Below, piece by piece: positions 2,790 through 62,215 of a stretch of DNA of 64,000 bases. The number at the start of each line of letters is the position of its first letter. The first letter of the stretch is position 1. The DNA comes from Desulfonatronovibrio hydrogenovorans DSM 9292 (lineage in GTDB: Bacteria; Desulfobacterota; Desulfovibrionia; Desulfovibrionales; Desulfonatronovibrionaceae), in the NCBI RefSeq assembly GCF_000686525.1, contig NZ_JMKT01000017.1, positions 62,001-126,000 of the forward strand. Direction: 5' to 3'. The notes under the pieces are model-generated. The model ran no database searches, was not told the DNA's origin, and saw nothing but the letters and a program-made list of their open reading frames with translations. A program made the position numbers and the translations under genes.

Positions 2790-3704
2790 TCATGCATCAG
2801 GAATTATCCGGCCGGCAATGTCCCGGACCAGAGACAGAACTTCAAAAGGCTTTTTCCCGGCAATGCGACTGACGGTCCCTGGACAGGAATCAGTCATCCA
2901 GAAATGGGTGAAGTCATCTGCTGCAAACCTTTTCCAGGCACCATCCGGAAAAACTCCATGGGTGACAAAGGCACTCACCTTTGCTGCCCCGGCCTTCATC
3001 AAAACCTCCCGGCACTGGATCAGAGTACCTCCAGTCATAACCAGATCGTCAACAATCACCACATGCCTGCCTCTAGGCTCTCCATCCCTGATGACCACTC
3101 TGCGCCCATCCTTTTCCCGGACCTTGTGGGCCGTGACCAGGGGGTAGCCTTTGAACATCCGCCCAAACCGCTTGCAGGCCCCCTGGTCGGGAAAAGCTAC
3201 TGTAATATCATTCATTCCTCCAATCCGGTCCAACAAAAGGGGGATCGCTGTTTCCAGCCTTGGAATGATCTGGTCGGAAAAATAAAATCTCTCCTGCAGG
3301 GCATGGATATCATAAATAAGAATCTGGGCCGGCCCGGTCATGGTACCTGGAACCCGGGAAAGCATCCTGGCCAGGGTGGCTGCTGTGGCGATTTCCCCTT
3401 CTTCATCCACCCTTTCTTTGGTTCCAGTGGGGAAATAGGGCAGAACGACCTTCAGAGACTTTACTCCCAGTCTGGGAAGTTCGTAAATTATTGAAAGCTG
3501 TCTGAATATTTCTCCTGGATCTTCCAGAGATGCCAGGAACACCACCGGCTTGTTCCGGAGGGACGGGGCATCCAGGACCTTGAGATCTGGAAATCCGTCT
3601 CTGAAATTCCGCCAGGATATCTCGCCCAGCTCAAACTCATGGCTGATCCGGCCAAGCTCCTGAGCCAGGGTGGCCATCTGGGGGCAATAAAATATTTTGA
3701 TCAC
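2790..3704 (-). CDS. Ribose-phosphate pyrophosphokinase-like protein
   Basis: A 304-residue member of the PRPP synthetase/phosphoribosyltransferase superfamily. The PRPP-binding loop is clear (VVIVDDLVMTGGTL), as are the phosphate-loop region around YFPTGTKERVDEEGE and a DIHALQERFYF segment matching the usual DLHA-Q-GFF stretch. The sequence resembles the divergent class of PRPP synthetases more than the standard bacterial Prs, so a paralogous role is possible. I prefer the GTG start at 3704, preceded six bases away by AAGAGG, over an in-frame ATG eight codons upstream that has no ribosome-binding site. It runs opposite to its neighbours and stands alone. Confidence 0.75.
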   Translation of the reverse strand: MIKIFYCPQMATLAQELGRISHEFELGEISWRNFRDGFPDLKVLDAPSLRNKPVVFLASLEDPGEIFRQLSIIYELPRLGVKSLKVVLPYFPTGTKERVDEEGEIATAATLARMLSRVPGTMTGPAQILIYDIHALQERFYFSDQIIPRLETAIPLLLDRIGGMNDITVAFPDQGACKRFGRMFKGYPLVTAHKVREKDGRRVVIRDGEPRGRHVVIVDDLVMTGGTLIQCREVLMKAGAAKVSAFVTHGVFPDGAWKRFAADDFTHFWMTDSCPGTVSRIAGKKPFEVLSLVRDIAGRIIPDA

Positions 3705-3802
3705 AACGTCCTCTTTTTTAAAAAACAATATGTTTTTTAAACTTTATCCAACCTATCCAAATCCGGTGGAAAAATAAAGTGCTGGAACCAGATATCCTGT
3801 AT

Positions 3803-3830: not shown

Positions 3831-3907
3831 ATTCAAACAATAACATTGACAAAGGCACTTGACCCAAGATAAGGATATTAAAAATCAATTTTATACATAC
3901 AGGTACC

Positions 3908-4345
3908 ATGCAGGAAGCACGAGACCAATTCTTCAATTATCTGGCCAAAAAAAAGCTGAAGATCACATCTCAGCGAGGCATTATTTTTGATGTGTTCTGG
4001 AATGTAAAGGATCACATCTCTCCTGAAGAACTCTACGGACTGGTCAAGGAAAATGACCCCTCCATAGGGCAGGCCACTGTGTACCGCACCCTTAAGCTTC
4101 TTTCAGATTCAAAGATAGCCAGGGAAGTTGATTTCGGAGACGGAGTCACCAGATATGAGCCTTATTTCGGCCAGAGCCATCACGATCACCTCATCTGCAA
4201 GGAATGCGGCAAAAGTGTGGAGGTCGTGGATGAAAAAATCGAACGGCTCCAGGAGAAACTGGCCAAGAAACACGGCTTCACCCTGAGTGGCCACTGCATG
4301 TACCTTTACGGCCACTGCAGTGAATGTGCTAAAAAACTGACTTGA
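3908..4345 (+). CDS. Fur-family metalloregulator
   Basis: A 145-residue, full-length Fur superfamily repressor. The N-terminal winged helix includes the typical ITSQRGIIFDVF and GQATVYRTLKLL segments (recognition helix). The hinge/dimerisation part carries the HHDH metal-site motif at 91-94 and two structural-zinc cysteine pairs, C97/C100 and C137/C140. I cannot separate Fur from PerR or Zur by eye. It sits directly upstream of two nicotianamine-synthase-like genes and feoAB, which favours an iron (or related metal) role and makes these genes its likely regulon, although the palindromes found nearby do not look like a classical Fur box. Confidence 0.9.
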   Translation: MQEARDQFFNYLAKKKLKITSQRGIIFDVFWNVKDHISPEELYGLVKENDPSIGQATVYRTLKLLSDSKIAREVDFGDGVTRYEPYFGQSHHDHLICKECGKSVEVVDEKIERLQEKLAKKHGFTLSGHCMYLYGHCSECAKKLT

Positions 4346-4393
4346 CAAGTCCTGCCAGTCCAGGCTAGCAGAACTACCTGCGAAAGACAGTCT

Positions 4394-4421
4394 AAAAAAG
4401 TCAACTTTGCTTGACTTTTTT
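4394..4421. promoter_or_regulatory. Inverted repeat AAAAAAGTCAA-N6-TTGACTTTTTT before the first NAS-like gene
   Basis: Left arm 4394-4404 and right arm 4411-4421 form a perfect 11-base inverted repeat with a six-base spacer (CTTTGC). It lies about 50 bases downstream of the Fur-family stop and about 57 bases before the next start. It could be an operator, since the same AAAGTCAA/TTGACTTT arms recur before feoA, or a weak terminator of the regulator gene, since it ends in eight T residues. The recurrence favours an operator. Confidence 0.55.
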
Positions 4422-4477
4422 TTAATGCAAATTTAATGATTATGAAAATCAGTCCGCTAATCAAGAAGAGGTTTAAG

Positions 4478-5032
4478 ATGAGCTGGATACCTCCTGTAAT
4501 TAAAGCCTGGGAAAAATTAAGCAGTGCCTCCAGGGTATTGACCTGGGTCTATTCCAAGCCGTACAAGCAGGTCCTGGAGAATGAGATCCGCCTTGGCAGA
4601 CTGTGCTCCACTGATGTTGTTTTAAACATAGGCTGCGGAGCAGTACCTTTCACGGCTCTCTATCTGGCCACTTTGACTGGAGCCAGGGTCTATGCTGTGG
4701 ATATTGATCCCCGGGCTGTGGCTCTGGCCAGAAAATGTGTGCATAATGCCGGTCTTGGACACAGGATTTCAGTAATCCGGAAAAACGGTACAGAGCCTTT
4801 TGACAGGCCTTTTTCCGCCGCCATTGTTGCCCTGCAGGCCGAGCCCAAGAACCGGATCATGCAGGTCATGAAAAAAACCGCCTGCTCCGGGGCCAGACTC
4901 ATTTTCCGGCTTCCCAGCCCGGCCTACAGAGATCATTACGACAACCTTTTGACCGACCAGACGGCTGCCGGAGTGGCCAGCCAGCCCATGCGCACCTTTG
5001 ACCGTTCGGTCTTATACCTCAACGCAGCCTGA
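4478..5032 (+). CDS. Nicotianamine-synthase-like SAM-dependent protein, copy 1
   Basis: A 184-residue Rossmann-fold protein. A glycine-rich SAM motif (LNIGCGAVPFTALYLA) is followed by an acidic strand end (VYAVDIDPRAVALARK). Both the layout and the GCGxxPxTAxxLA wording resemble nicotianamine synthase/CntL-type aminobutyryl transferases more than ordinary methyltransferases, as does a late RL-x-SPAYRDHYD segment. The product is not proven. The start at 4478 was chosen because AAGAGG lies six bases upstream; an earlier ATG at 4436 lacks a ribosome-binding site. It begins a tight group with the flippase-like gene (7-base gap) and a paralogue, next to the Fur-family gene and feoAB. A simple small-molecule methyltransferase is the main alternative. 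Confidence 0.6.
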   Translation: MSWIPPVIKAWEKLSSASRVLTWVYSKPYKQVLENEIRLGRLCSTDVVLNIGCGAVPFTALYLATLTGARVYAVDIDPRAVALARKCVHNAGLGHRISVIRKNGTEPFDRPFSAAIVALQAEPKNRIMQVMKKTACSGARLIFRLPSPAYRDHYDNLLTDQTAAGVASQPMRTFDRSVLYLNAA

Positions 5033-5039
5033 AGGATTC

Positions 5040-6047
5040 ATGACCAGGATAATTCTATTTTTCTTGGGAGTGGCCGGACTCATAGTCCTTGCCCTGGCTT
5101 TTGGCGCCGGGCAGGTCAGAGAAGCTTTGACAGTCATTACCGCGCAGTCCGTGCTGATCCTCTTTTCCCTGCAGCTGGCGACTCTGCTGGCTGGCGCCTG
5201 GATATGGCACTTTCTTCTGAGCCGCAACTCCAGGATATCCTTTGGAACTGTTTTTTTGATCAACCAGGCCGCAGCGCTGGTGGAAAGTCTGACTCCGTCA
5301 GTTAAGCTTGGAGGGGAGGCAGCCAAGATATACCTGCTCAGAAAAAAGACCTGCCAGCCCCTCGAGGGGCTGGCAGGGGTGATGCTTGTCCACAAATTTC
5401 TGACCATGTCACCTTTTGCCCTGCTCTGCCTGCTCCTTCTGGCCCCTGGACTGTTTTATTTTGACCTGCCCTGGGTCTTTTATGTTTCTCTAGCCGGACT
5501 GGTCCTGATCTGCCTTGTCCTGGGCCTGATCTGTTACCGGCTTCCTTCTTCGTCCAGCCCCAAAACAATCAAACCAGCCAGGGCCGAACTTTCCAGACTG
5601 AAAAAGTTTTTTTCCAAAGCCGGCCTTTTTCTGGCTCAGGCCAGGATTTCAGCTTCTGGGCTGCTGGACTTCAGGCAAACCATGGGGGTCTTCACGGTTT
5701 CCCTGGCTATCTGGATACTTTACCCGGTCAAGGTATATCTGGCCTGCTCTTTTCTAGGCATGGATGTCCACCCGGTGGTCATCGGGCTGGCAACAGTTTT
5801 TGCATACATGATCAGCATGATCCCGATTTTCCCTGGAGGCCTGGGCAGTTATGAGGGCGGCATGACCTTGCTCTTTACCTTGGGCGGATTGAGTCCGGCT
5901 GAAGGGCTGGCCATAGCACTTGTTTCCAGACTGACAACCTTCTGGTTTCCTTTGCTTCTGTCAGCAGGGTCCTGCTTGGTCCTGCTCAGAGAAGACAGCC
6001 TGGCCCTGCACCGTTCTGAGCCTGACCAGTCCACGATCCAGGCCTGA
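5040..6047 (+). CDS. Flippase-like integral membrane protein (UPF0104/LPG_synthase_TM)
   Basis: A 335-residue, strongly hydrophobic protein with about eight predicted membrane helices. It matches the UPF0104/LPG-synthase-TM family (the flippase half of MprF, and AglD-like proteins), including the late signature PGGLGSYEGGMTLLF and an early SLTPSVKLGGEAAKIYLL. The start at 5040 has GAAGGA just upstream; the longer frame from 4998 would overlap the previous gene. It lies between two nicotianamine-synthase-like paralogues. Family members move or transfer onto lipids or other amphipathic molecules, so export or membrane handling of the product of its neighbours is a reasonable guess but not shown. 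Confidence 0.75.
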   Translation: MTRIILFFLGVAGLIVLALAFGAGQVREALTVITAQSVLILFSLQLATLLAGAWIWHFLLSRNSRISFGTVFLINQAAALVESLTPSVKLGGEAAKIYLLRKKTCQPLEGLAGVMLVHKFLTMSPFALLCLLLLAPGLFYFDLPWVFYVSLAGLVLICLVLGLICYRLPSSSSPKTIKPARAELSRLKKFFSKAGLFLAQARISASGLLDFRQTMGVFTVSLAIWILYPVKVYLACSFLGMDVHPVVIGLATVFAYMISMIPIFPGGLGSYEGGMTLLFTLGGLSPAEGLAIALVSRLTTFWFPLLLSAGSCLVLLREDSLALHRSEPDQSTIQA

Positions 6048-6085
6048 CCATCAATCTTCAACCAAAACACAACTTCAGGAAAAAA

Positions 6086-6721
6086 ATGAAAACCATTCCC
6101 GTAACCAAGGAAACAGCCTGGGCAGAAACCGGGCAAGGCAGCATTAAGCTAAGCTCCCTGTTTCTTTTTTTCATTAAAAAAATGGAGTCACTGGGTTCTG
6201 CCTGCCCCTGGCTGGGCAGGGCATACTTCAAGTTTTTTTATTCCAGCATGGTCCAACGAGAATTATCCCTGTCCAAAGCTCTTCCCGGCATGAAAGTACT
6301 GCACATTGGCTGCGGCCCCTATCCCATGACCGCCCTTTTTCTTGCCTCCAGAGGTTTGATGGTTACAGCTGTCGACACTGATGAAGGTGTTCTGGACCGG
6401 GCCAGAAAGACCGTAGCTCATCATAAGCTTGATCATCAGATCAGAATTACCCAGGGCTGTGGCACATCAATGAAATATTCCGGGTATGACTTTATATGGT
6501 TGTCCCTGCACGTCAGTCCCATGGGCCGGGTAGTTGAACGGGCCCTGAATTCCATGGATCAGGACGCAGGCATAATATTCAGAGGTCCCAGAGGCAGTTT
6601 AAAAACCATATATAAGGAAACCAACCCTGCTGGAACAGCAGACCGGGTCGTTTGTCAGGAAGTTAGCCAGCCTTTGGGTAAAAAAAGTGTTCTCCTGAAA
6701 AAAACTCCTCTGAAGGATTAA
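6086..6721 (+). CDS. Nicotianamine-synthase-like SAM-dependent protein, copy 2
   Basis: A 211-residue paralogue of the 4478-5032 product. It has the SAM motif VLHIGCGPYPMTALFLAS and the acidic strand end VTAVDTDEGVLDRARK. A late IIFRGPRGSLKTIY segment recalls the RS-x-x-G-x-x-x-x-Y stretch of nicotianamine synthases. It carries about 40 extra N-terminal residues. AGGA lies seven bases before the ATG, and only 38 bases separate it from the flippase-like gene, so the three genes are probably one transcript. Two divergent copies in one operon suggest two steps on one molecule or a heteromer; this is inference. Confidence 0.6.
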   Translation: MKTIPVTKETAWAETGQGSIKLSSLFLFFIKKMESLGSACPWLGRAYFKFFYSSMVQRELSLSKALPGMKVLHIGCGPYPMTALFLASRGLMVTAVDTDEGVLDRARKTVAHHKLDHQIRITQGCGTSMKYSGYDFIWLSLHVSPMGRVVERALNSMDQDAGIIFRGPRGSLKTIYKETNPAGTADRVVCQEVSQPLGKKSVLLKKTPLKD

Positions 6722-6730
6722 TTATGATAT

Positions 6731-6832
6731 TTGCTCTTGACTTTTTCTAAAAAATATAATTTGATAATTACATTCAAAGTCAAGCCAGTCCTTGACTTTT
6801 TTATAAAATTTCCTGGTGATATTGAAAGTCAA
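6731..6832 (+). promoter_or_regulatory. Promoter and clustered AAAGTCAA/TTGACTTT sites before feoA
   Basis: In 100 bases there are four half-sites in alternating orientation: TTGACTTT at 6737-6744, AAAGTCAA at 6776-6783, TTGACTTT at 6792-6799 and AAAGTCAA at 6825-6832. The middle two form a perfect 9-base inverted repeat (AAAGTCAAG-N6-CTTGACTTT, 6776-6799). A possible promoter is TTGCTC (6731-6736), 18 bases, TATAAT (6755-6760), so the first half-site would lie inside it. TTTGCT(C)TTGACTTTTT occurs both here and at 4406. This reads as an operator region for feoAB. Confidence 0.6.
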
Positions 6833-6894
6833 ATCGGCAATCACGGCAATCGCACTGCAAGTTGCTGATTTCGCAGAAATAAAGGAGCCTGAAT

Positions 6895-7209
6895 ATGTTT
6901 AAGCAATGGTTTGGACGAGGAAACTGTCCTGCTGACGCTCAATGTTCTGACATTGCTGCCTCCCCTGATACAATGACTCTTGACTGCCTTCAGTTGAATG
7001 AGACAGGCGAAATTGATGCTGTTCCTGAAGAATCCCTCCTGAGTGCCCTGGGTTTCAGGCCTGGAAAACAGGTTTGCCTGCGTTGCCGCACACGGTTCGG
7101 AGGACCGGTGGTAGCTGAAATTGAAGGCCGGCACACAGCTGTGGCCAGGTCCCTGGCCCGGAGGATCCGCCTGAGGAACCGACACGCATCCTGCCCTGCG
7201 CATGACTAA
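6895..7209 (+). CDS. feoA: FeoA-domain protein of ferrous iron uptake
   Basis: A 104-residue protein whose second half is a FeoA (SH3-like) domain: LLSALGFRPGKQVCLRCRT, FGGPVVAEIEG, and a final AVARSLARRIRL. The first 35 residues are an unusual extension with cysteines (GNCPADAQC). A strong AAAGGAG precedes the ATG, and the gene overlaps feoB by eight bases. FeoA is a small cytoplasmic partner needed for FeoB activity. Expression is probably controlled by the palindrome cluster just upstream. Confidence 0.85.
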   Translation: MFKQWFGRGNCPADAQCSDIAASPDTMTLDCLQLNETGEIDAVPEESLLSALGFRPGKQVCLRCRTRFGGPVVAEIEGRHTAVARSLARRIRLRNRHASCPAHD

Positions 7210-9004
7210 AAATCATATTCTGCTCATGGGCCCGCCTAATGTGGGCAAGAGCGTTATTTTCAATCACCTGACCGGCCTCAACGTAAGTTGCGCCAATTAT
7301 GCCGGAACCACGGTAGAGTTCGTGGCCGGAAAAACAAACTTTGGCAATGGAAAGCTTTTTCTGGTGGATGTCCCGGGTACTTACACCCTGAGTGCCACCA
7401 ATCAGGCCGAACAGGTAGCCGTGGACATGCTTCAGGGAAAACACAAGCCCGGAGCTAAATCCACCTGCGCCCACTGCCGGGAGGACACAGAGGTCTGCGC
7501 TGACGACCTCTCTGCCAAACCGGCCGCTGTTGTCTGCGTTGTTGACGCCAACAATCTGGAGAGCAGCCTCTACCTTCTGCTGCAGGTCCTGGAATTCAAT
7601 CTTCCCACCATTATTGCTCTGAACAGAATAGACCTGGCCAGGGACAAAAACCTGGACATCGACCTGGACGCCCTTGGCAAAGAACTCGGCGTGCCAGTCG
7701 TCCCCATGGTGGCCATTGAAAAAAAGGGGCTGCCCGAGCTGGAAAAAGCTGTTGAGTCGATGTTAAGGGCCCCGTCTGCGCCCAAAGTCAATTGGAAGCC
7801 AGGGGATGCAGATCTGTGGTCCATGGCTGAGCAGCTGACCAGAAAGGTCTGCCGCCCTGGGCAAACCCAACAAATTTCCAAAAGAAAGGTCTGGGGGGAA
7901 AGACTGGTCCATCCCTGGCCGGGCCTGCCTCTGGCCATCCTTATCCTGATCCTGTCCTTCGCCTTAGTGGTGGGCATCGGCATGCAGATGCGCCAGCTCA
8001 TCCTTCTGCCCCTCTTCCGCGGCCTGATTATTCCCCAGATCGTACAGATCGTGGAGGCACTCATTGCTCCAGGCATCATCCGCAATATCATGGTGGGAGA
8101 GTACGGCTTTCTGGTCAAAGGCATTGAATGGCCCTTCACCCTGGTCATGCCCTATGTGCTGTCATTTTACGGGGTCATGGCCGTGCTTGAAGACAGCGGC
8201 TACCTGCCAAGGCTCGGGGTGCTCCTGGACGGCCTTTTAAATAAGATAGGCCTGCAGGGATCAAGCATAATCCCTTTACTCCTGGGCTACGGCTGTGGAA
8301 TTCCCGGAATCCTGGCCAGCCGGGCCCTGTCTTCGGGCAAGGAAAGGATTATGATCGCCACCATGATCTGCATGGCCATTCCATGCATCTCTCAGACCGG
8401 GGCCTTCATCGCCATGCTTTCGGAACGTTCGGTCAGCGTTGTGGTGGCAGTATTTCTAGTCTCCTTTGCCGCCCTGATCCTGGTGGGGATCATCATGGAC
8501 AAGTTCTTTAAAGGCCCCAGGCCTTTGACTATCATGGAAATCCCTGAACTTCTCCCCCCAAGAGTGGACGTACTTTCCAAAAAGATCTGGGTCAGGCTCA
8601 AACGCTACGTTACTGACGGAGCCCTGCCCATGGTGGTGGCAGTGGGAATTGCAGCTGTGCTCTATGAAACAGGAATCATGGCTGCAGCGGGCAGCTTCCT
8701 GAGTCCCCTGGTGGTCCACTGGCTCAGGCTCCCGGAGGAAGCATCCATTCCTCTTATCCTGGGAATCATGCGCCGGGAACTGGCCGTGCTTCCCCTTATT
8801 GAAATGCAGCTCACCACCCTGCAGCTCTTTGTCGGGGCGGTGGTGGGTCTATTTTATGTGCCATGCATTGCCATTGTGGCTACCCTGGCCAGAGAGTTCA
8901 GCGTCAAGACCGCGTTTTTCATGCTTCTGGTGACCAGCACCACTGCATTCCTGGTGGGCGGAATTTTTGCCAGGATGAGCTTTCTCTCCCTGATTTTCTC
9001 CTGA
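7202..9004 (+). CDS. feoB: Ferrous iron transporter FeoB
   Basis: A 600-residue inner-membrane Fe(II) transporter with an N-terminal GTPase. G1 is GPPNVGKS at 10-17 and G3 is DVPG. G4 is at 141-144 and reads NRID instead of the usual N-x-x-D forms such as NMMD or NKxD. Between G3 and G4 there is an insertion with C89, C92 and C99, a possible metal or redox site. The membrane part shows the two gate repeats (LLLGYGCGIPGI with a Cys, and later GIMRREL), which are FeoB hallmarks. It is shorter than E. coli FeoB (773). It is coupled to feoA and should take up ferrous iron under anoxic conditions. Confidence 0.93.
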   Translation: MTKNHILLMGPPNVGKSVIFNHLTGLNVSCANYAGTTVEFVAGKTNFGNGKLFLVDVPGTYTLSATNQAEQVAVDMLQGKHKPGAKSTCAHCREDTEVCADDLSAKPAAVVCVVDANNLESSLYLLLQVLEFNLPTIIALNRIDLARDKNLDIDLDALGKELGVPVVPMVAIEKKGLPELEKAVESMLRAPSAPKVNWKPGDADLWSMAEQLTRKVCRPGQTQQISKRKVWGERLVHPWPGLPLAILILILSFALVVGIGMQMRQLILLPLFRGLIIPQIVQIVEALIAPGIIRNIMVGEYGFLVKGIEWPFTLVMPYVLSFYGVMAVLEDSGYLPRLGVLLDGLLNKIGLQGSSIIPLLLGYGCGIPGILASRALSSGKERIMIATMICMAIPCISQTGAFIAMLSERSVSVVVAVFLVSFAALILVGIIMDKFFKGPRPLTIMEIPELLPPRVDVLSKKIWVRLKRYVTDGALPMVVAVGIAAVLYETGIMAAAGSFLSPLVVHWLRLPEEASIPLILGIMRRELAVLPLIEMQLTTLQLFVGAVVGLFYVPCIAIVATLAREFSVKTAFFMLLVTSTTAFLVGGIFARMSFLSLIFS

Positions 9005-9167: not shown

Positions 9168-11906
9168 ATGCAAAATGTTTTCGGCCCGGGTGGCCCCACC
9201 GGACCGGGTGGTCCACACCAGCAAACTCCCCAGTTTAACCTTGAAGACCTGGACATCTCCAAGATCTACCGTTTTACCAGGTATGGTCTATTTGCCCTGG
9301 CCCTCATCTTCCTCTGGATGGGAATCAGCTGGGCCCAATCATTCTACACAGACTGGCTCTGGTACCAGGGCCTTGGCTATGAGTCGGTCCTGCTGAAAGT
9401 TGTCACCACCAAGGTCGGACTCTTTCTGCTGGGAGTTGGCCTGGTCCTGGTCCTGATAGTGCCCAACCTCTATCTGGCCCATACCTATGCCGGAAAGTAC
9501 AAGCTCATCAATCCTCAGGTCCCTGCTCATCTTTACCAGTCAGCCAGAAGGCTCCTGGGCTGGGGCCTTGTTGGAGTCACCGTTCTTGGAGCCTATTTCC
9601 TGGGCCGGGCCCCTGCCTATGAATGGGAAATGGTCCTTCGCTTTCTGAACCACGTCTCCTTTGGAGAAACCGATCCAGTATTTGGCAGAGATTTTTCCTT
9701 TTACGTATTCGTGCTTCCAGCCCTTGACTTTTTCCGTTCCTGGCTGGTGGCCGTGTTAATAGCTGTCATGCTCTTTGTAGGAGGCTACTACTATATCAGC
9801 GTAACCATCCGGGGAGAAATGTTCTCCTTCACTGGAAGGGTCAAATCTCACCTGGCCCTCCTGGGTGCCGGGGTCATGGTCCTGGTGGCTCTAGGACACT
9901 GGCTCAGCCGTTACGAACTTCTTTATTCTCCCCTGGGCGCTGTCTATGGTGTCGGGTACACAGACCATAATATTGTGCTTCCAGCCCTGACCACCATGAC
10001 CCTTGTGGCCCTGGCCTGTGCCGGAATCCTGGTGGCTGCGGCATTTTACAAAGGCAAAAAGGCTATCCTGGTAGGCGTGGGCCTCTGGTTCGGCCTGAAC
10101 ATCCTGGCTGGAAGCGTAGCTCCGGGCCTGGTCCAGCGTCTGGTGGTCGAACCCAGCGAACTGGCCAGGGAAAGAAGCTATCTGGCTGAGAACATTAAGC
10201 ACACCCGCGATGCCTTTAACTTGAACCAGATGACCACCAGAAGCCATCCAGCCAGGGGTGCTCTGGACAGGCAGACCATTGAAGACAACCCCGGGACCAT
10301 TCAGAACGTCCGCCTCTGGGATGAAGGTCCTCTGCTCCAAAGCTACAACCAGATCCAGTTTTTCCGGCTGTATTACGACTTTCTGGCCGTGCATACTGAC
10401 CGGTACACTGTAAATGATGAACTGCGGCAGGTCATGCTGGCCACCCGGGAACTCTCGGCAGACAAGCTGCCCACCGAAGCCCAGCGCTGGGTTAACAGGC
10501 ATCTCCAGTTCACCCATGGATACGGGGTGGCCATGACCCCTGTTACTGAAGTTGAGGAAGGCGGCAGACCCGGCTTTTTTATCCAGGATCTCCCTCCAAG
10601 GGGCGAGATTGGACTTGATCGGCCTGAGATTTATTATGGACTCAAGAGCCTCAACTACCTCATTGTCCGGACCAGGATGCAGGAATTCAACTACCCGGGT
10701 GAAGAAGGACCGGTTTATACCCACTATGAAGGCGAAGGCGGTGTTGCCCTCAATTCCTTCTTCCGCAGGCTCATGTATGCCTGGGAATTCAGAGACATCA
10801 ACATCCTGATCTCCGGCGAAATAACCCCTGAAAGTCTTATTCAGTACCGCCGGACCGTGCCCCAGAGATTCAGGACCATTACTCCCTTTTTAAAGAAAGA
10901 CCGGGAAGCTTACAGTGTGGTTGCTGACGGACGGCTCTTCTGGATCCAGGACGCCTACACCACTACCACCCGCTATCCATACTCAACCCCGTGGCAGAAC
11001 TCCTTCAATTACATCCGCAACAGTGTCAAGGCTGTAGTAGATGCCTATCACGGCACCATTGATTATTATGTATCAGATCCTGATGATCCCATTATCCAGA
11101 CCTATCAGGCCATCTTCCCGGACCTTTTCAAACCCATGGAAGAAATGCCTGAATACCTCAGGGAACATGTCCGCTACCCTCAGGACATGTTCACGGTCCA
11201 GACCCAGATGCTTCTGCAGTATCACATGGAAGATCCTGTTGTATTCTATAACAAGGAAGATCAGTGGTCCGTTCCGGTCCAGCACTCCTTTGGCCGGACC
11301 GAGGTGCTAAGGCCCTACTATATCGTGGCCAGGCTCCCTGGCGAAGAAAAAGAAGAATTCCTCCTTATTCAGCCCTTCACTCCCATCAACAGGCACAACC
11401 TGGTGGGCTGGATGGCGGCCAGGAGCGATGGAGAGAACTACGGCGAACTGATGCTCTTCAGATTCCCCACTGGCCGGCACGTGGACGGACCCAACCAGGT
11501 CGAGGCCAGGATTGACAACGACGCTATCATCTCCGAGCAGTTCACCTTGTGGGGTCAGGCCGGTTCCGAGGTCTTCCGGGGTATCCTGCTGGTCATTCCA
11601 GTGGGAGATTCCCTGCTGTACGCTGAACCGGTATTTCTGACGCCAGACGCCCTGGAGTTCCCGGAACTCAGGCGAATCATCCTGGCCGATTCCAGGCAGG
11701 TGGTCATGCATCAGACCCTGGACGATTCCATTGATGCTTTAGTGGGAAGGCTTCCAGCTGTGGCCCCTGTGGTCGAAGTTGACGAGCCTGACCAGCCAGC
11801 AACCCGAATCCTTCCGGACCTCAGAGATAATCTGAAGGACGGACTCACGGAAGCCATTGACAAACTCCAGGAAGCCCTGGACCATCTCAAGGGGCTTGTC
11901 AGATAG
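9168..11906 (+). CDS. UPF0182 family large membrane protein
   Basis: A 912-residue protein of the UPF0182/COG1615 family, whose function is unknown. A Gly/Pro-rich start (GPGGPTGPGGP) precedes about seven membrane helices within residues 35-320. A large soluble part with family-typical wording follows (NIKHTRDAFNL, IFPDLFKPMEEMPEYLREHVRYP). The C-terminal 40 residues are acidic and probably coiled. The length is normal for the family. It is monocistronic, with its own possible control region upstream. The soluble part probably lies outside the cytoplasm, judging from helix number; this is inference. Confidence 0.9.
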   Translation: MQNVFGPGGPTGPGGPHQQTPQFNLEDLDISKIYRFTRYGLFALALIFLWMGISWAQSFYTDWLWYQGLGYESVLLKVVTTKVGLFLLGVGLVLVLIVPNLYLAHTYAGKYKLINPQVPAHLYQSARRLLGWGLVGVTVLGAYFLGRAPAYEWEMVLRFLNHVSFGETDPVFGRDFSFYVFVLPALDFFRSWLVAVLIAVMLFVGGYYYISVTIRGEMFSFTGRVKSHLALLGAGVMVLVALGHWLSRYELLYSPLGAVYGVGYTDHNIVLPALTTMTLVALACAGILVAAAFYKGKKAILVGVGLWFGLNILAGSVAPGLVQRLVVEPSELARERSYLAENIKHTRDAFNLNQMTTRSHPARGALDRQTIEDNPGTIQNVRLWDEGPLLQSYNQIQFFRLYYDFLAVHTDRYTVNDELRQVMLATRELSADKLPTEAQRWVNRHLQFTHGYGVAMTPVTEVEEGGRPGFFIQDLPPRGEIGLDRPEIYYGLKSLNYLIVRTRMQEFNYPGEEGPVYTHYEGEGGVALNSFFRRLMYAWEFRDINILISGEITPESLIQYRRTVPQRFRTITPFLKKDREAYSVVADGRLFWIQDAYTTTTRYPYSTPWQNSFNYIRNSVKAVVDAYHGTIDYYVSDPDDPIIQTYQAIFPDLFKPMEEMPEYLREHVRYPQDMFTVQTQMLLQYHMEDPVVFYNKEDQWSVPVQHSFGRTEVLRPYYIVARLPGEEKEEFLLIQPFTPINRHNLVGWMAARSDGENYGELMLFRFPTGRHVDGPNQVEARIDNDAIISEQFTLWGQAGSEVFRGILLVIPVGDSLLYAEPVFLTPDALEFPELRRIILADSRQVVMHQTLDDSIDALVGRLPAVAPVVEVDEPDQPATRILPDLRDNLKDGLTEAIDKLQEALDHLKGLVR

Positions 11907-11952: not shown

Positions 11953-12585
11953 ATGCCCAGCATCAAGACAACCCAGGCGCCACCTGTCCGGACACTTTTT
12001 ATAATCCTGTCCGGGCTGGTGGCCCTTGTTTTATCCTTTAAACCGGTCTTTTCTCATCCCCATGTTTTTGTGGAGTCAGAACTTGAGATTGAGCTGGACC
12101 AAAAAGGAATCAAGGGTTTCTGGCAGCACTGGTCCTTTGATGAATATTTCAGTGCCTGGGTCATTGATGAGTACGACACTGACAAGGACGGTCAATTCTC
12201 TCCTGAAGAGACCCAAAGGCTTTACCAGGAGGCATTTAAAAATTTAAAAAACCACGGCTATTTCACCAGAGTACTGAACAACGGTCAGGAAATCCCGGTC
12301 AGGGAAATCCAGAACTTTTCCGTCAGAATCGAAAACAACATGGCTGTGTATTCCTTCTTTGTTCCCCTGAACATCAGCATTGATTCCAGTACAAAAGATA
12401 TCTTCATTGCTGTTTATGATGAGTCGTTCTACTGCCAGATCTTTTTCCCGCCCCAGGAAGTCGAATTCAGGGGAAGCACCGCTGAGTGGAAAACCAGCGT
12501 CACTACCCAAAAAATGCCCGAACTGACCTACTATTTCGGATTCGTAACCCCTGTTGCTGTCAGGGTGTCCATTGTTCCTTCATGA
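11953..12585 (+). CDS. DUF1007 periplasmic protein with EF-hand-like loop
   Basis: A 210-residue exported protein: a hydrophobic signal segment at about 14-33, then the DUF1007 hallmark HPHV at 35-38 right after cleavage. Residues 75-86 fit the 12-residue EF-hand loop exactly (acidic at 1, 3 and 5, Gly at 6, Glu at 12). DUF1007 proteins are regularly encoded beside NicO/RcnA-type transporters. Here the stop overlaps the start of such a gene (ATGA), so it probably delivers or senses the metal for it. The exposed N-terminal His pair may bind nickel or cobalt. Confidence 0.82.
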   Translation: MPSIKTTQAPPVRTLFIILSGLVALVLSFKPVFSHPHVFVESELEIELDQKGIKGFWQHWSFDEYFSAWVIDEYDTDKDGQFSPEETQRLYQEAFKNLKNHGYFTRVLNNGQEIPVREIQNFSVRIENNMAVYSFFVPLNISIDSSTKDIFIAVYDESFYCQIFFPPQEVEFRGSTAEWKTSVTTQKMPELTYYFGFVTPVAVRVSIVPS

Positions 12586-13517
12586 TCAGACCCTTATCCA
12601 TCACTCTATTTTTTCTGCTCTTCCTGGGTCTTTCCGGCCAGGCATCAGCCCAGAGCCCTTTCCAGGCTCCAGCAGCAACTGATCAGGAAAAAACAGAACA
12701 AACTTTCTCCCCAGGGAATCTTCTGCCTGGATGGATCAAGGAGCAGGGTCAGAAGGCCATGGCCAGAATAATTCTCTGGCAGTCCCAGATCAGACAGACA
12801 GCAGGAACTTATGCCCGCCAGATCAAGGAAAACCCCTGGGGAACTGCTTTCTGGTCTTACCTGGGGCTGGCCTTTGCATACGGTGTGATTCACGCCCTGG
12901 GTCCGGGCCATGGCAAGGTCTTTGTCAGCACCTATTTTTTAAGCAGAAGGGCCAGAGTCAAACAGGGGGTGCTCATGGGCAGCCTCATGAGTTTTCTCCA
13001 CGTCCTCTCAGCCGTTATCCTGGTCTTTTTATTCTATTTCGTGCTCAAATCAGGAGGACTGGGATCAGTGGACGATGCCGGTGGGCATCTGCAGAAAATC
13101 AGTGCCGGTCTGATTGTCTTGGTGGGGTTATTTTTGGCCTGGAAATCGCTGCGCTCAATTTTTCAAGACTCTTCTGATCAATGCGCCTGCTGCAATTCTG
13201 ATCCTGACAACAAAGGCATTCTCTCCCTGTGTCTGGCTGTGGGACTTGTGCCTTGCCCAGGAGCAGCCCTGATCCTTTTCTTTTCCATCAGCCTGGATAT
13301 CCTTGCTGCCGGAATCCTGGCCATGTTTTTCCTGGCTGCCGGCCTTGCCCTGACCACGGTTTCCTTTGCCCTGGTCTCCCTCTGGGCCAGAAATATTCTG
13401 GCCAGGGCTTTTTCATCAACCTTTCTAAGCTCAAGGATTTACCATATCCCTGCCTTGATAGGAGCAGTGTTCATCACTTTTTTAGGAGCAATTCTTTTTT
13501 TTAACCCGGTCGTCTGA
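12582..13517 (+). CDS. NicO-family nickel/cobalt transporter
   Basis: A 311-residue inner-membrane protein with a signal-like start (residues 1-24, ending QASAQ), a periplasmic linker and about six membrane helices. The NicO/RcnA hallmark HALGPGHGK is present, with SFLHVLSAV and an ACC-N-D loop that may bind metal, then VGLVPCPGAALILFF. I use the ATG at 12582, which overlaps the DUF1007 stop, rather than the longer open frame inside the previous gene. It probably moves Ni or Co across the inner membrane; direction cannot be told. Nickel could serve hydrogenases or the LarB pathway seen at 44.4 kb. Confidence 0.85.
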   Translation: MIRPLSITLFFLLFLGLSGQASAQSPFQAPAATDQEKTEQTFSPGNLLPGWIKEQGQKAMARIILWQSQIRQTAGTYARQIKENPWGTAFWSYLGLAFAYGVIHALGPGHGKVFVSTYFLSRRARVKQGVLMGSLMSFLHVLSAVILVFLFYFVLKSGGLGSVDDAGGHLQKISAGLIVLVGLFLAWKSLRSIFQDSSDQCACCNSDPDNKGILSLCLAVGLVPCPGAALILFFSISLDILAAGILAMFFLAAGLALTTVSFALVSLWARNILARAFSSTFLSSRIYHIPALIGAVFITFLGAILFFNPVV

Positions 13518-13555: not shown

Positions 13556-14476
13556 TCAGGAAAAAAGGCCAATGAGCAGGGGCATTGATCCTGCAGCAAC
13601 AACGGTTTGAACTGTGATGATGGCAGCCATCATGTCCAGACCTCCGCCCAGCTGTCTGGCCATGACAAAGGCTGCAGCTCCACAGGGCAGAGACGCAAAC
13701 ACAACCACCACCAGAATTGAGGGCTGGTCCAGGCCCACCCAGACAGACATCAGCCCCATCAGCAGAGGGAGCAGAACCAGTTTGAATACTGAAGACCATA
13801 GAATTGGTCTCCATTTGGAGGCAATGCCCCTGAACTCCAGTCCTGCCCCAACAGCCAGCAGGCCCAGGGACAAAGACGCCTGGCTCAGAATTCGCACCAC
13901 CTCTTCTGTACCCAGAACAAGTCTCAGTCCGCTCAAATTAACTCCGATCCCCAGAAAGCAGGCCAGAATCAGAGGATTGCTGACCAAAGAGATAAAAGCT
14001 TTTTTCCACCCCTTGCTCTGATTATTTCCAAACCTGGTCACCACTGCCACACTGATGAAATTGGCCAAAGGAATCATTACAGCTATGACCATGGCCGCCA
14101 GGGCCAGGCCCTCGGCCCCCAGGAATACAAAGGCCGCTGAAATACCTACATAGGTGTTGGGCCGGAGCCCACCCTGAAACAAGGAGGAAAAATCAGCTTC
14201 ACTGACCCTGAACACAGGCCGAAGCAGGAGCATGATCAGACTGGTAGCAAGCATGGGAACGCTTACAGCCAGGGCCATGGACCAGAACCGGGTCTGGCTG
14301 AAGTCGGCGCTGTACAGGCTGAAGAACAAAAGGGCCGGGAAAAAAACATAATATGTGATTCTTTCAGCCATGGGCCAGAATGATGATCCTGGGAATCCAA
14401 TGCGCTGAAATACCCATCCCATGAGGATGAGGATGAATATGGGTGACAGGGCCAGAAACACGCTGTTCAAATCCAT
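13556..14476 (-). CDS. AEC-family (auxin efflux carrier-like) permease
   Basis: A 306-residue integral membrane protein of the AEC/Mem_trans family with about ten helices. The N-terminal FILILMGWVFQRIGF and YYVFFPALLFFSLY segments, the central NTYVGISAAFVFLG, and the C-terminal PCGAAAFVMARQLGG are typical. Bacterial members carry small carboxylates such as malate or malonate, but the substrate cannot be read here. It is convergent with the NicO gene, with 38 bases between stops, and has no obvious partner. Confidence 0.87.
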   Translation of the reverse strand: MDLNSVFLALSPIFILILMGWVFQRIGFPGSSFWPMAERITYYVFFPALLFFSLYSADFSQTRFWSMALAVSVPMLATSLIMLLLRPVFRVSEADFSSLFQGGLRPNTYVGISAAFVFLGAEGLALAAMVIAVMIPLANFISVAVVTRFGNNQSKGWKKAFISLVSNPLILACFLGIGVNLSGLRLVLGTEEVVRILSQASLSLGLLAVGAGLEFRGIASKWRPILWSSVFKLVLLPLLMGLMSVWVGLDQPSILVVVVFASLPCGAAAFVMARQLGGGLDMMAAIITVQTVVAAGSMPLLIGLFS

Positions 14477-14800
14477 TCCTTTGCAAATATCCTTGACAGG
14501 AGTTTTTTCATGTTCTTAGCATGTAACTAGTTTTAACCGAAACCGGTCATTTGAACGTATCCTTAAGGAATGCCTTTCATTTCGAGCACTCAAGGTGGAG
14601 TGGGAATCTCGTAATAACCGGCCGAAATTGTCTTAGCCAGACCTGAATCTCACCAGAAGGATCTCAGCCTGATGACCGCCAAAAAACCGCCCCTCGATCT
14701 TAACATGTGAAAGCATAACCAGAGTCCAGGCTACCTGCAATATCCGGATTTTCAAAGTCCTTCAGGAGTCTGGTGCCTTGAATAAACAAAGGAGGTTCTC
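14477..14800. other. 324-base gap between divergent genes
   Basis: No open frame with coding character was found. A TTGACA box at 14493-14498 has only a poor -10 (TTAGCA) 17 bases on. AAAGGAGG at 14788-14795 is the ribosome-binding site of the molybdoenzyme gene. No sigma-54 site, riboswitch or strong repeat was recognised. Confidence 0.6.
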
Positions 14801-17098
14801 ATGTCCATCACCAGAAGAAAGTTCATGCACAGTTCAGCCCTGGCTGCAGGAGGACTGGTGTTCAGCTCCATGGGCATGCGTTTATACGCCTATGATCCGG
14901 ACCAGATCAGCCCTGACCGGGACGAAACCCGTAAAAGCTATTGCGGGCTGTGTCATCCCAGATGCGGAATCCTTTTGCATATGAAAAAAGGGAAGGTGAT
15001 TCAGGTCACTGGTGACCCGGACCACCCTTTGACCAGGGGGGTCATATGCCAGCGGGCCCTTTTGATGCCCGAGCATATCCACCACCCCGGACGGATCAAT
15101 TATCCCATGAAAAGAACAGGTCAACGCGGACAGGGACAGTGGGAAAGAATCTCCTGGGACCAGGCCCTGGACGAAGTGGCCGAAAAGCTCTCCCGGCTCA
15201 GGGATGAACATGGACCTGAAACCCTGGCCTTTACCCACGGAACCAGCCGGACCCACCATTGGGACTGCAGGCGTTTTTTCAACTTATTCGGATCACCCAA
15301 TATTGGTGGGGCCAACAATATCTGCATGTGTCCCAGCTATGCTACTGAATTTGCCACCTACGGAGGCATGGCCAGAGGTGACGTCAGAAACGCCAGGTGC
15401 GTGGTCATCTGGGGCAGGGCCGCCTCCAAGTCAGCCCCGGTGACTTCCTATCCAGCCCTGGAACATGCCAGGCAGCAGGGTGCCAGATTCATCGTCATTG
15501 ACCCCAGACAAATTGAGGAAACCAAGTTTGCGGATAAATGGCTTCAGATCCGACCCGGAACAGATCTGGCCCTGATGCTGGCCTGGATCAGGATTATCAT
15601 TGAGGAAGACCTTTACCACAGGGAATTCGTGGAAAAATGGACAAAGGGATTTGACCGGCTTAAGCTGGCAGTCCAGGACTACACCCCGGAAAAAGTGTCC
15701 AGAATCACCTGGATTCCTGAAAAGGATATCCTGGAGTCGGCCAGGATGTATGCCACCACGAGCCCGGCTGTAATTCCCTATGGATATGGCCTGGACAAGC
15801 AGGGTATCAACTCCAACCAGTGTGCCAGGGCCAGAGCCATATTAAGGGCCATAACCGGAAACCTGGAGATCCCCGGCGGCGAAATCATGAGTCAGGCCCC
15901 GGAAATGGCCAGGGTCAGGGGTGAGTTCGACCTGGTCCAGAGCGATGCCATAGGGCCGGAACAAAGGGCCAAGCAGATCGGCATTGACAAGTATCCCTTT
16001 TTCGGCTTCCCGGGTTGGGAAAAAAATGTCCAGAACAATAAACGGCTTCCCCAGGGATACATTGACCCGCCCTCCATGTACCGGACCTGTGTAGGTCATC
16101 TGCGGGAAATCTTCAAAGCTGCCATAACCGGAAAACCTTATCCAGTCCGGGCCATGATGTCTGTGGCCAACAACCCCATGCTGGCCTTTCCTGACGTCAA
16201 CCTGACCCATAACGCTCTTACTTCCCTGGATCTTTATGTGGTCATGGAGTACTATATGACCCCGTCAGCAGCCCTGGCCGACTATGTATTTCCATCGGCA
16301 ACCACTGTTGAGCAGCCTCAGCTCTGGACCAGCGGAGGCTTCTGCATGACCTGCCCCCAGGGACTTGAACCCCTGTATGAACGCAGGGATACCTATCAAT
16401 TCTACCGGGGTCTTGGGCTTCGTCTGGGGCAGGGACAGGACTGGCCCTGGAAAAACCTGGAACAGGTTTATGACTACTGTCTGGAGCCGGCAGGAGTGAC
16501 CTTCCGGGAACTGAGTGAAACCTACGGATTCTTTGGCAAACGGGAATACAGACAGTATGAAAAATACGGCTTTGGAACTCCTTCAGGCAAAGTGGAGCTG
16601 TATTCCACAGTGTTTGAGGATCTCGGCTGCGATCCCCTGCCCAGATATAAGGAACCCCTCTGGAGCCCCGAGGCTGATCCGGAACTGACCAAACAATACC
16701 CCCTGATCCTGATCACCGGCAGCCGATTCATGCCCATGTACCATTCTGAACATCGCCAGATTGAATCAGCCAGGGAGCAGGTGCCTGACCCGCTGGTCTG
16801 GATGCATCCAGACACAGCCGTCCAATATGGATTAGCGGAAAATGAATGGGTTCATGTTGTCAACCCCAAGGGCAGAATAAAAATGCGTCTCAGGACTTCG
16901 ACCATCATGCATCCTCAAATGGTGGATGTTCAGCATGGGTGGTGGTTTCCTGAAAGAAAGGAGGGAACGCCTGATCTGTTTGGAGCATTGGAGTCCAATG
17001 CCAACGTGCTCTGTCCCATGGACGAGGAACACTGCAGCCCTGAAATCGGCAGCTGGCCCCATTCAGCCCTGATATGCCGGGTGGAAAAAATCAGCTGA
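14801..17098 (+). CDS. Tat-exported molybdopterin oxidoreductase, catalytic subunit
   Basis: A 765-residue member of the DMSO-reductase superfamily (polysulfide/thiosulfate/tetrathionate reductase-like branch). The twin-arginine signal is R5-R6-K-F-M with a hydrophobic stretch to about residue 30. A 4Fe-4S site is formed by C48, C51, C55 and C83. The likely Mo/W ligand is a cysteine, C175 or C177, in NNICMCPSY. The C-terminal dinucleotide-binding domain begins near LILITGSRFMPMYHSEHRQ. The strong AAAGGAGG fixes the start. No iron-sulfur or membrane-anchor subunit gene follows, which is unusual for this branch; partners must be elsewhere, or it works with a soluble donor. The substrate is unknown. 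Confidence 0.88.
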   Translation: MSITRRKFMHSSALAAGGLVFSSMGMRLYAYDPDQISPDRDETRKSYCGLCHPRCGILLHMKKGKVIQVTGDPDHPLTRGVICQRALLMPEHIHHPGRINYPMKRTGQRGQGQWERISWDQALDEVAEKLSRLRDEHGPETLAFTHGTSRTHHWDCRRFFNLFGSPNIGGANNICMCPSYATEFATYGGMARGDVRNARCVVIWGRAASKSAPVTSYPALEHARQQGARFIVIDPRQIEETKFADKWLQIRPGTDLALMLAWIRIIIEEDLYHREFVEKWTKGFDRLKLAVQDYTPEKVSRITWIPEKDILESARMYATTSPAVIPYGYGLDKQGINSNQCARARAILRAITGNLEIPGGEIMSQAPEMARVRGEFDLVQSDAIGPEQRAKQIGIDKYPFFGFPGWEKNVQNNKRLPQGYIDPPSMYRTCVGHLREIFKAAITGKPYPVRAMMSVANNPMLAFPDVNLTHNALTSLDLYVVMEYYMTPSAALADYVFPSATTVEQPQLWTSGGFCMTCPQGLEPLYERRDTYQFYRGLGLRLGQGQDWPWKNLEQVYDYCLEPAGVTFRELSETYGFFGKREYRQYEKYGFGTPSGKVELYSTVFEDLGCDPLPRYKEPLWSPEADPELTKQYPLILITGSRFMPMYHSEHRQIESAREQVPDPLVWMHPDTAVQYGLAENEWVHVVNPKGRIKMRLRTSTIMHPQMVDVQHGWWFPERKEGTPDLFGALESNANVLCPMDEEHCSPEIGSWPHSALICRVEKIS

Positions 17099-61153: not shown

Positions 61154-62215
61154 TCAATTGCCGGGTTGATAATCTGTGAGGTACGCTAATGCCAGGAGCA
61201 TCCTTTTTTCCAGTTCTTCTGCCCCTTCAACCATTCGCACCCCGGCCCTGGCCTCCCAGATATTCAACCCGGCAACAGGCCCCAGTTTTACCGCATCCTT
61301 GGAAGTACAGATTACATCTCTGACCCCGGCCTGCCCGGCCATGGCTGTTATGGCCTTGATGGACTGGGCGCCAAAGGGGTGGTGGTCGGCAAAGGGCAGA
61401 TGTCCTCGCGGTCCATAGCCCAGAAAAGAACTTATGGATAAGACCACTTTTCCGGGATTGGCCACCCCGGTAACCAGCAGGTAAGGCCTGTTGTCCAGTC
61501 CATGAACCGGTTGATCCTGATCAAGCCTTTTTAATTCCTTGATGCTCAGATCAAAATAACAGACTGGCTTGCCTTGGAGCAAGGGTCTTTTATCCACCAG
61601 ATCTTTGACCCTGGATAGCTCACAGCCCCACAAGTTGACCATGAACAGATCCGCCCTGGCCAGGGCCAGTTCATCCTCCCGCCACCTTCCGGCCGGGACA
61701 ACCCTGTTCCAGCCCTCAGCCAGGTCATGGGGGGTCAGAAGCACCAGATCAGCATCCCTTTGGACCCTGACGTGCTGAAAACCGTCATCCAGGATAAAGA
61801 CATCCGGATCAAGGCGGGACAAAGCCCAGCTGGCCGCCCTGACCCGGTCCGGGTCCACTACCACCCTGGCCCTGGCTGCCAGAGACCTGGCCAGCATAAG
61901 GGGTTCATCCCCGCACACCCCGGGATCATCACCTGGCTCCACCAAGTGGGGAAAAACATTTGTTCCAGCCTTGTAGCCCCTGGTCAGGATGACCGGTTTC
62001 CGGCCAGTGTCTGCCAGCCATGTGCCCAGAAACTGGCACAGCGGGGTCTTGCCGGTCCCGCCCATGGAAATATTGCCCACCGAGATGACCGGCCTGGACA
62101 GCCTGAGCGCTTTTCTGGTCATGGCCTGCTGGCGCATCCGGACTCCCAGGGCGTAAATCCGGCCCAGGGGGTAAAGGATCTTTGCAGTTCTGGAGGAAAA
62201 AAAATCAGCTTTCAT
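61154..62215 (-). CDS. lpxK: Tetraacyldisaccharide 4'-kinase LpxK
   Basis: A 353-residue inner-membrane kinase. It has a P-loop (VGNISMGGTGKTPLCQFLG), LTRGYKAGTN, the catalytic DDGFQHVRVQRD and the closing GVANPGKV. It phosphorylates the lipid A precursor at the 4' position. ATG 62215 is preferred; a TTG directly before it could also serve. The 150 bases upstream hold nothing recognised. Confidence 0.95.
   Translation of the reverse strand: MKADFFSSRTAKILYPLGRIYALGVRMRQQAMTRKALRLSRPVISVGNISMGGTGKTPLCQFLGTWLADTGRKPVILTRGYKAGTNVFPHLVEPGDDPGVCGDEPLMLARSLAARARVVVDPDRVRAASWALSRLDPDVFILDDGFQHVRVQRDADLVLLTPHDLAEGWNRVVPAGRWREDELALARADLFMVNLWGCELSRVKDLVDKRPLLQGKPVCYFDLSIKELKRLDQDQPVHGLDNRPYLLVTGVANPGKVVLSISSFLGYGPRGHLPFADHHPFGAQSIKAITAMAGQAGVRDVICTSKDAVKLGPVAGLNIWEARAGVRMVEGAEELEKRMLLALAYLTDYQPGN

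Follow-up and report, generated by a model that had tools for sequence, protein, structure and literature searches.

How can anaerobic bacteria keep ferrous iron available near pH 10 in the presence of sulphide? This question is raised by a six-gene locus of Desulfonatronovibrio hydrogenovorans DSM 9292. It is located in the 64,000 nt stretch of contig NZ_JMKT01000017.1 that we analysed (positions 62,001 to 126,000, subsequently referred to as the window; part of contig 15 in our numbering of the 2.9 Mb genome, which is 98.9% complete). The genera Desulfonatronovibrio and Desulfonatronospira are haloalkaliphiles of soda lakes. FeoB, the ferrous iron permease, is usually thought to take up free Fe(II). 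In this locus, two genes for compact proteins resembling nicotianamine synthase (NAS), here called nas1 and nas2, and a gene for a flippase-like membrane protein are found between fur and feoAB. In plants and certain microbes, enzymes of the NAS kind make metal-binding molecules. The locus is real in the sense that it is conserved and linked to iron. We put the probability at about one in two that Nas1 and Nas2 are iron-repressed 3-amino-3-carboxypropyl (ACP) transferases, whose product, an Fe(II) ligand resembling nicotianamine, acts together with a short type of FeoB in these soda-lake sulphate reducers.

Two conserved gene modules

The open reading frames (ORFs) of the window and their Pfam matches give six genes on the forward strand in the order fur, nas1, flippase-like gene, nas2, feoA and feoB. 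A first-pass annotation, made from the sequence alone, had listed the same genes in this order at 3908–9004; all of them were found again there, on one strand, and the start of nas1 was corrected. The fur gene (3908–4345) encodes a regulator of 145 aa (PF01475, E = 3e-35), and its orthologues, 76–87% identical, adjoin nas1 or nas2 in the relatives. The nas1 ORF opens at 4436, where the first ATG lies inside a Fur-box-like operator; the conserved protein of 184 aa starts at 4478, as judged from an alignment of nine sequences, and ends at 5032. The flippase-like protein (5040–6047, 335 aa) scores above both cut-offs of its families (LPG_synthase_TM, PF03706: E = 1.1e-38, 133.9 bits, cut-off 33.4; TIGR00374: 101.3 bits, cut-off 43.2), and its start is more likely at 5040 than at 4998. 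It is followed by nas2 (6086–6721, 211 aa), feoA (6895–7209; PF04023, E = 5.5e-11) and feoB (7202–9004; FeoB_N, PF02421, E = 2.3e-45), so both domains of a Feo system are matched.

Among 61 relatives, nine have a nas1 orthologue (at least 56% identity) and nine a nas2 orthologue (at least 39%). All of them belong to the family of the window (18 genomes), and none was found in the 43 other genomes of the order. The flippase gene directly follows nas1 in all nine testable loci (the window, which is also L069, L054, L055, L057, L058, L060, L062, L064 and L071), with a spacing of −17 to +9 bp in seven of the eight measured loci and of 74 bp in L062; L056 stops before the gene after nas1 and was left out of this count. 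Likewise, nas2 is located 5′ of feoA-feoB, with fur upstream, in nine of nine loci (the window, L054, L055, L059, L061, L063, L065, L012 and L066). In Desulfonatronovibrio, the genus of the window, the nas1-flippase module lies between fur and nas2, while in Desulfonatronospira the two modules lie apart, separated by about 410 kb in G009. The other neighbours of nas1-flippase in the latter genus mostly differ between genomes (only a gene like that at 2790–3728 of the window recurs, in L062 and L064), and thus it is the pairings themselves that are conserved. Since the six-gene order recurs in related genomes, it is not a chance arrangement. A lack of such conservation would have spoken against the annotation; we looked for it in the relatives and found the order conserved.

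Two cases stand out. L071, from a contig labelled Desulfobacteraceae, carries fur, nas1 and the flippase gene at 80%, 61% and 51% identity, which points to either a misassigned metagenome-assembled genome or a transfer. The genome G006, 99% complete, has nas1-flippase without nas2 and FeoB, and this may be a gap or a true loss.

A NAS-type core in Nas1 and Nas2

The Pfam model for NAS (PF03059, curated cut-off 27.1 bits) matches Nas1 with 28.5 bits, above the cut-off, and Nas2 with 25.4 bits, below it. For both proteins, the best solved sequence relative is MtNAS, the thermonicotianamine synthase of Methanothermobacter thermautotrophicus (E = 2.5e-12 for nas1 and 6.2e-8 for nas2), and the next NAS-type match is CntL of the staphylopine pathway (2.4e-7 for nas1, 1.8e-7 for the nas2 profile). 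Family profiles searched against the PDB gave MtNAS 47.7 bits (nas1) and 60.0 bits (nas2, E = 1.8e-15), as against 33.6 and 27.3 bits for the best non-NAS entries. AlphaFold models (mean pLDDT, the predicted local distance difference test, of 79.8 for Nas1 and 78.7 for Nas2, with low confidence at the N termini) led to the same protein: MtNAS was the top Foldseek match of both (E = 3.7e-12 and 9.9e-13; TMq 0.72), and VIA-align also ranked it first.

Motif I reads LN(I/V)GCGA(V/I)P in all nine Nas1 and H(I/V)GCGPxP in all nine Nas2 proteins. This is the NAS form, GxG(P/A)xP: all 18 compact proteins have the NAS proline and lack an acidic residue, whereas all 22 methyltransferases of our tree set keep a D or E in the motif. 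Among the sequences compared by their profile scores, the motif expression missed or misplaced motif I in some rows, such as L018 and one frame of L209, and x_L162 has an Asn at the acidic position and no NAS proline. An excerpt of an earlier study describes the change of motif I in NAS and connects it with the way in which the aminoalkyl group is released (PMC1282579). In the tree, one branch with a support of 100/98 parts 24 NAS-type rows (13 of the 18 compact proteins and 11 full-length NAS) from the 22 methyltransferases, decoys that had been hand-picked from profile hits. MtNAS catalysis uses Glu81 and Tyr107 (PMC10491745, in excerpt), and the Tyr aligned to Y107 (Y43 of Nas1 and Y52 of Nas2, numbered by ORF) is kept in all 18 compact proteins. 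Nas1 and Nas2 are compact members of a wider NAS-type group and probably work in a NAS-like manner.

Fur-box-like sites

The imperfect palindrome TGATAtTGAAAATCA is found 5′ of nas1, of separate nas2 genes and of feoA, in many loci near a TTGACT hexamer. In the window, the nas1 promoter/operator (4411–4452, forward strand) comprises TTGACT at 4411–4416, a second hexamer ending at 4440 and the Fur-box-like TGATTATGAAAATCA at 4437–4451. A further site precedes feoA on the same strand (6817–6831, TGATATTGAAAGTCA, one mismatch), and a weak one precedes fur (3873–3887, forward, two mismatches to TGATAWTGAAAATCA). A single promoter scan of this region returned eight promoter-like sites with 4.5 expected by chance, and therefore the −35/−10 reading rests on conservation and not on the scan. 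At the sequence level, a Fur-box-like operator lies at the promoter of nas1 in eight of nine loci and of separate nas2 genes in six of six.

In the genome of the window, only three sites have at most one mismatch (5′ of nas1, of feoA and, on contig 16, of a small operon of two genes). Allowing two mismatches brings the total to 42 matches, compared with nine for the reversed pattern. A matrix built from nine feoA sites recovered nas1 sites in eight of nine loci (scores 13.2 to 28.0; L058 misses) and all six separate nas2 sites (17.2 to 27.0), while five shuffles per locus gave 5.2 hits scoring over 12 and 1.8 scoring over 14 across the 283-kb set. The training sites were picked by a consensus that came from these regions themselves, and the set included L134–L137 and L139, which had been fetched for holding box matches. 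The matrix scan is thus supportive but not independent, because the motif was first seen in the scanned regions and some loci were chosen for their boxes.

The delta-proteobacterial Fur regulon with its multiple feoAB copies, as far as the excerpted source describes it (PMC545781), is similar in its iron context and in having Fur-box-like sites before feoAB; it differs in that here NAS-like genes and a flippase gene lie inside the regulon. The window site is nearer to the E. coli Fur consensus GATAATGATNATC than to the delta-proteobacterial WTGAAAATNATTTTCAW, both given in the same excerpt.

The region of the small operon on contig 16 (L135:5900–11481) was inspected as well. It holds a P-type ATPase gene together with HMA_2 and PHA_gran_rgn genes, the two-gene operon, whose box has one mismatch, and a DUF4198 gene in divergent orientation, an arrangement that we take to resemble ferrosome fez operons. 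In L054, an extra stretch between the flippase gene and nas2 (14083–15007) holds two more box-like sites and a short ORF, perhaps a decayed gene, with a signal-peptide start like that of the DUF4198 protein in L135.

A distinctive short FeoB

The FeoB linked to the nas genes is about 600 aa long. In the alignment it lacks stretches of the usual form of about 735 aa, and its G domain contains an insertion rich in Cys. The insertion consists of CxHC followed by another Cys (about residues 89–99, window 7466–7498) and is present in all six aligned nas-linked FeoB proteins. Ten of the 11 nas-bearing genomes of the family have the short type (the missing one is G006), compared with none of the seven nas-free genomes, which have the usual type only; as the genomes are related, these cases are not fully independent. 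The iron link proposed in the first-pass annotation is stronger than it appeared there, through shared Fur-box-like promoters and co-occurrence with one FeoB type.

Relatives of this FeoB at 31–38% identity occur in 13 other genomes among the 395 of the phylum. A tblastn search in the short flanks of 11 loci (L215–L225) from these 13 genomes revealed neither a NAS nor a flippase gene beside them, and the only neighbour found was fur, in two of the 11. The genome of the window has a second short feoB (L134:3003–4993, contig 16), and Fur-box-like sites lie at most about 200 bp 5′ of this gene; its product (L134:3003–4805) has lost the cysteines of the insertion.

Proposed function and alternatives

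Judging from the conserved boxes, Fur would hold down the promoters of nas1-flippase, nas2 and feoAB as long as iron is sufficient. Nas1 and Nas2 are predicted, from their relatives, motif I and the kept Tyr, to be compact transferases dependent on S-adenosylmethionine (SAM), and one or both would use SAM to place ACP on an amino or amino-acid acceptor, leaving methylthioadenosine as the by-product. The product could be a nicotianamine-like carboxylate/amine ligand that would keep Fe(II) in solution despite high pH and sulphide. It might act inside the cell, or the flippase-like protein might move it to the periplasm, and there the short FeoB, which is co-inherited, would import the iron. If this is true, Feo gains a small-molecule partner through a NAS-type pathway linked to both the Fur boxes and FeoB, nicotianamine-type chemistry extends to sulphate reducers, and the compact enzymes tell which parts of NAS are essential.

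Several observations weigh against an ACP transferase pathway of this kind. According to the alignment, the helical N-terminal domain of NAS, about 100 residues, is absent from the compact proteins, whose ORFs span 182–246 aa with about 45–60 residues ahead of the core in most. None of the 18 aligned proteins has a Glu at the place of MtNAS E81 and CntL E84. An invariant Glu a few residues further on (E26 in Nas1, E34 in Nas2) could, from its place in the sequence, serve as the catalytic one. We do not file Nas1 and Nas2 as nicotianamine synthases, because the domain and the aligned Glu are absent; of the NAS-likeness claimed by the annotation, the NAS-type core holds (sequence, fold, motif I and tree), while an ordinary NAS is not supported. 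Moreover, Pfam methyltransferase models score equal to NAS on the compact proteins, the nas2 profile gives the generic methyltransferase L085 49.2 bits and the best full-length NAS 37.4, and the top NCBIfam match of nas2 is CpaM (44.2 bits, cut-off 180). The VIA-align Z scores for MtNAS (18.3 and 20.8) are tied with those of unrelated methyltransferases (17.9 and 20.1). With regard to the locus, the regions that were scanned are those in which the box motif had come to light, and G006 has nas1 but neither a nas2 orthologue nor a FeoB match.

It is possible, though in our view unlikely, that Nas1 and Nas2 are ordinary methyltransferases, acting on small molecules or lipids, whose genes lie in an iron regulon by chance. 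Methyltransf_25 matches seven of nine Nas1 and nine of nine Nas2 proteins, where NAS matches seven of nine in either group, and generic methyltransferases score with the profiles. However, motif I has a Pro and no acidic residue, the tree parts the two groups at 100/98, and the PDB searches favour MtNAS over non-NAS entries by 14 to 33 bits. The assignment of Nas1 and Nas2 to an unrelated methyltransferase family, which the annotation had named as evidence that would overturn it, was rejected on motif I and the tree, with MtNAS as the best match by sequence, profile and fold; whole-profile scores, in which generic methyltransferases overlap with or exceed full-length NAS, were indecisive by themselves.

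Ranking next, and rather improbable, is a modification of lipids: Nas1 and Nas2 would put ACP (or methyl) on a lipid head group, and the flippase-like partner would move it to the outer leaflet, where this surface ligand would hold Fe(II) for FeoB. This would agree with the locking of nas1 to LPG_synthase_TM, to which the MprF flippase domain belongs, in nine of nine testable loci and mostly at tight spacing, and without the enclosing N-terminal domain of NAS a large acceptor could fit. G012 (97% complete) and G015 (92%) would fit as well: both nas modules are present in them and, draft gaps being possible, neither the barrel (PF00593) nor the plug (PF07715) of TonB receptors was matched. The nas genes can thus be kept without a secreted chelator that depends on a receptor. 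However, nas2 is tied to feoAB and not to the flippase gene, and the N termini show no membrane helix that is strongly hydrophobic or clearly amphipathic. An amphipathic N-terminal membrane anchor was also considered and dropped after a hydrophobic-moment scan with no clear case.

A bolder variant, which we consider a long shot, is that the compact pair builds an ACP ligand on a membrane-bound acceptor (or acts as a heteromer in which each protein supplies the missing half-site of the other). The flippase would present the ligand on the periplasmic face, where Fe(II) would be held against sulphide and carbonate and handed to the short, dedicated FeoB, making it a receptor-free, surface-held ferrous metallophore.

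A secreted, staphylopine-like metallophore that returns across the outer membrane via a TonB receptor seems very improbable: the genome of the window has two to three TonB-receptor genes, and G023 has one ahead of two full-length NAS genes in tandem (L067), but among the window ORFs and Pfam matches no receptor, ABC importer or opine dehydrogenase adjoins nas1 or nas2, and G012 and G015 have both modules with neither receptor domain. This form of the idea is not supported. Receptor domains are present in G001, G002, G006, G009 and G014 besides the window's own genome (G000). The opine dehydrogenase domain PF10100 was matched in none of 17 genomes, and no control genome matched it either. In opine clusters, as excerpted from PMC7438024, cntM lies directly 3′ of cntL, with import and export genes within six ORFs; the order here is different, as LPG_synthase_TM follows nas1 and feoA follows nas2.

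Related systems and NAS genes elsewhere in the phylum

We did not meet such a locus in the open-licence PMC literature that was searched, and no wider absence is implied. With MtNAS (PDB 3fpe, 3fpf, 3fpj and 3o31), Nas1 and Nas2 have in common the type of motif I, Tyr107 and the order of the core motifs; they differ by the lack of the N-terminal domain and of an aligned Glu81, by occurring as two paralogues and by the Fur/Feo context. CntL (7c9m) shares the NAS-type sequence match, but here no CntM, no Opp or FecCD importer and no EamA or MFS exporter adjoins, and the genes are linked to Fur-box-like sites and FeoB. The flippase-like protein matches the MprF flippase domain over most of its length; unlike MprF, it has no lysyl-phosphatidylglycerol synthase domain and is paired with a NAS-like enzyme.

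Few genomes of the phylum, 10 of 395, have a NAS (PF03059). Tandem pairs of full-length NAS-like genes are found in five of these ten genomes and in the order-mate G023. The pairs at L155:8672–10368, L157:481–2180, L158:7360–9056 and L159:8758–10460 encode 293–294 and 271–273 aa in overlapping genes, and the first member opens with a conserved Cys-rich segment; no transport genes are evident in these units. Like the compact pair, these pairs and that of L067 combine two NAS-type paralogues with the same core motifs; they differ in their full length, the Glu at the E81 place and the gene overlap, and neither a flippase gene nor feoAB was seen beside them, with gene names judged by eye. Working in pairs may be the rule for NAS in this phylum, with the compact pair as a reduced form. 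Trees disagree on whether nas1 and nas2 descend from two full-length NAS types; an earlier NAS tree omitted x_L068 and x_L162, which are not NAS by alignment, and B_L156 was trimmed. In G023, L067:492–5673 holds a 672-aa TonB-receptor ORF (PF00593) and ORFs of 260 and 155 aa ahead of the tandem genes, and is a candidate for a separate metallophore locus.

Neighbouring genes

Around the six genes, the window carries what we take, by their look, to be a regulator (1340–2752), a PRS-like protein (2790–3728) and a UPF0182 protein (9168–11906). Genes for a DUF1007 protein and for NicO, a nickel/cobalt transport family, follow at 11953–13517, 3 kb past feoB, and their order is the same in L055.

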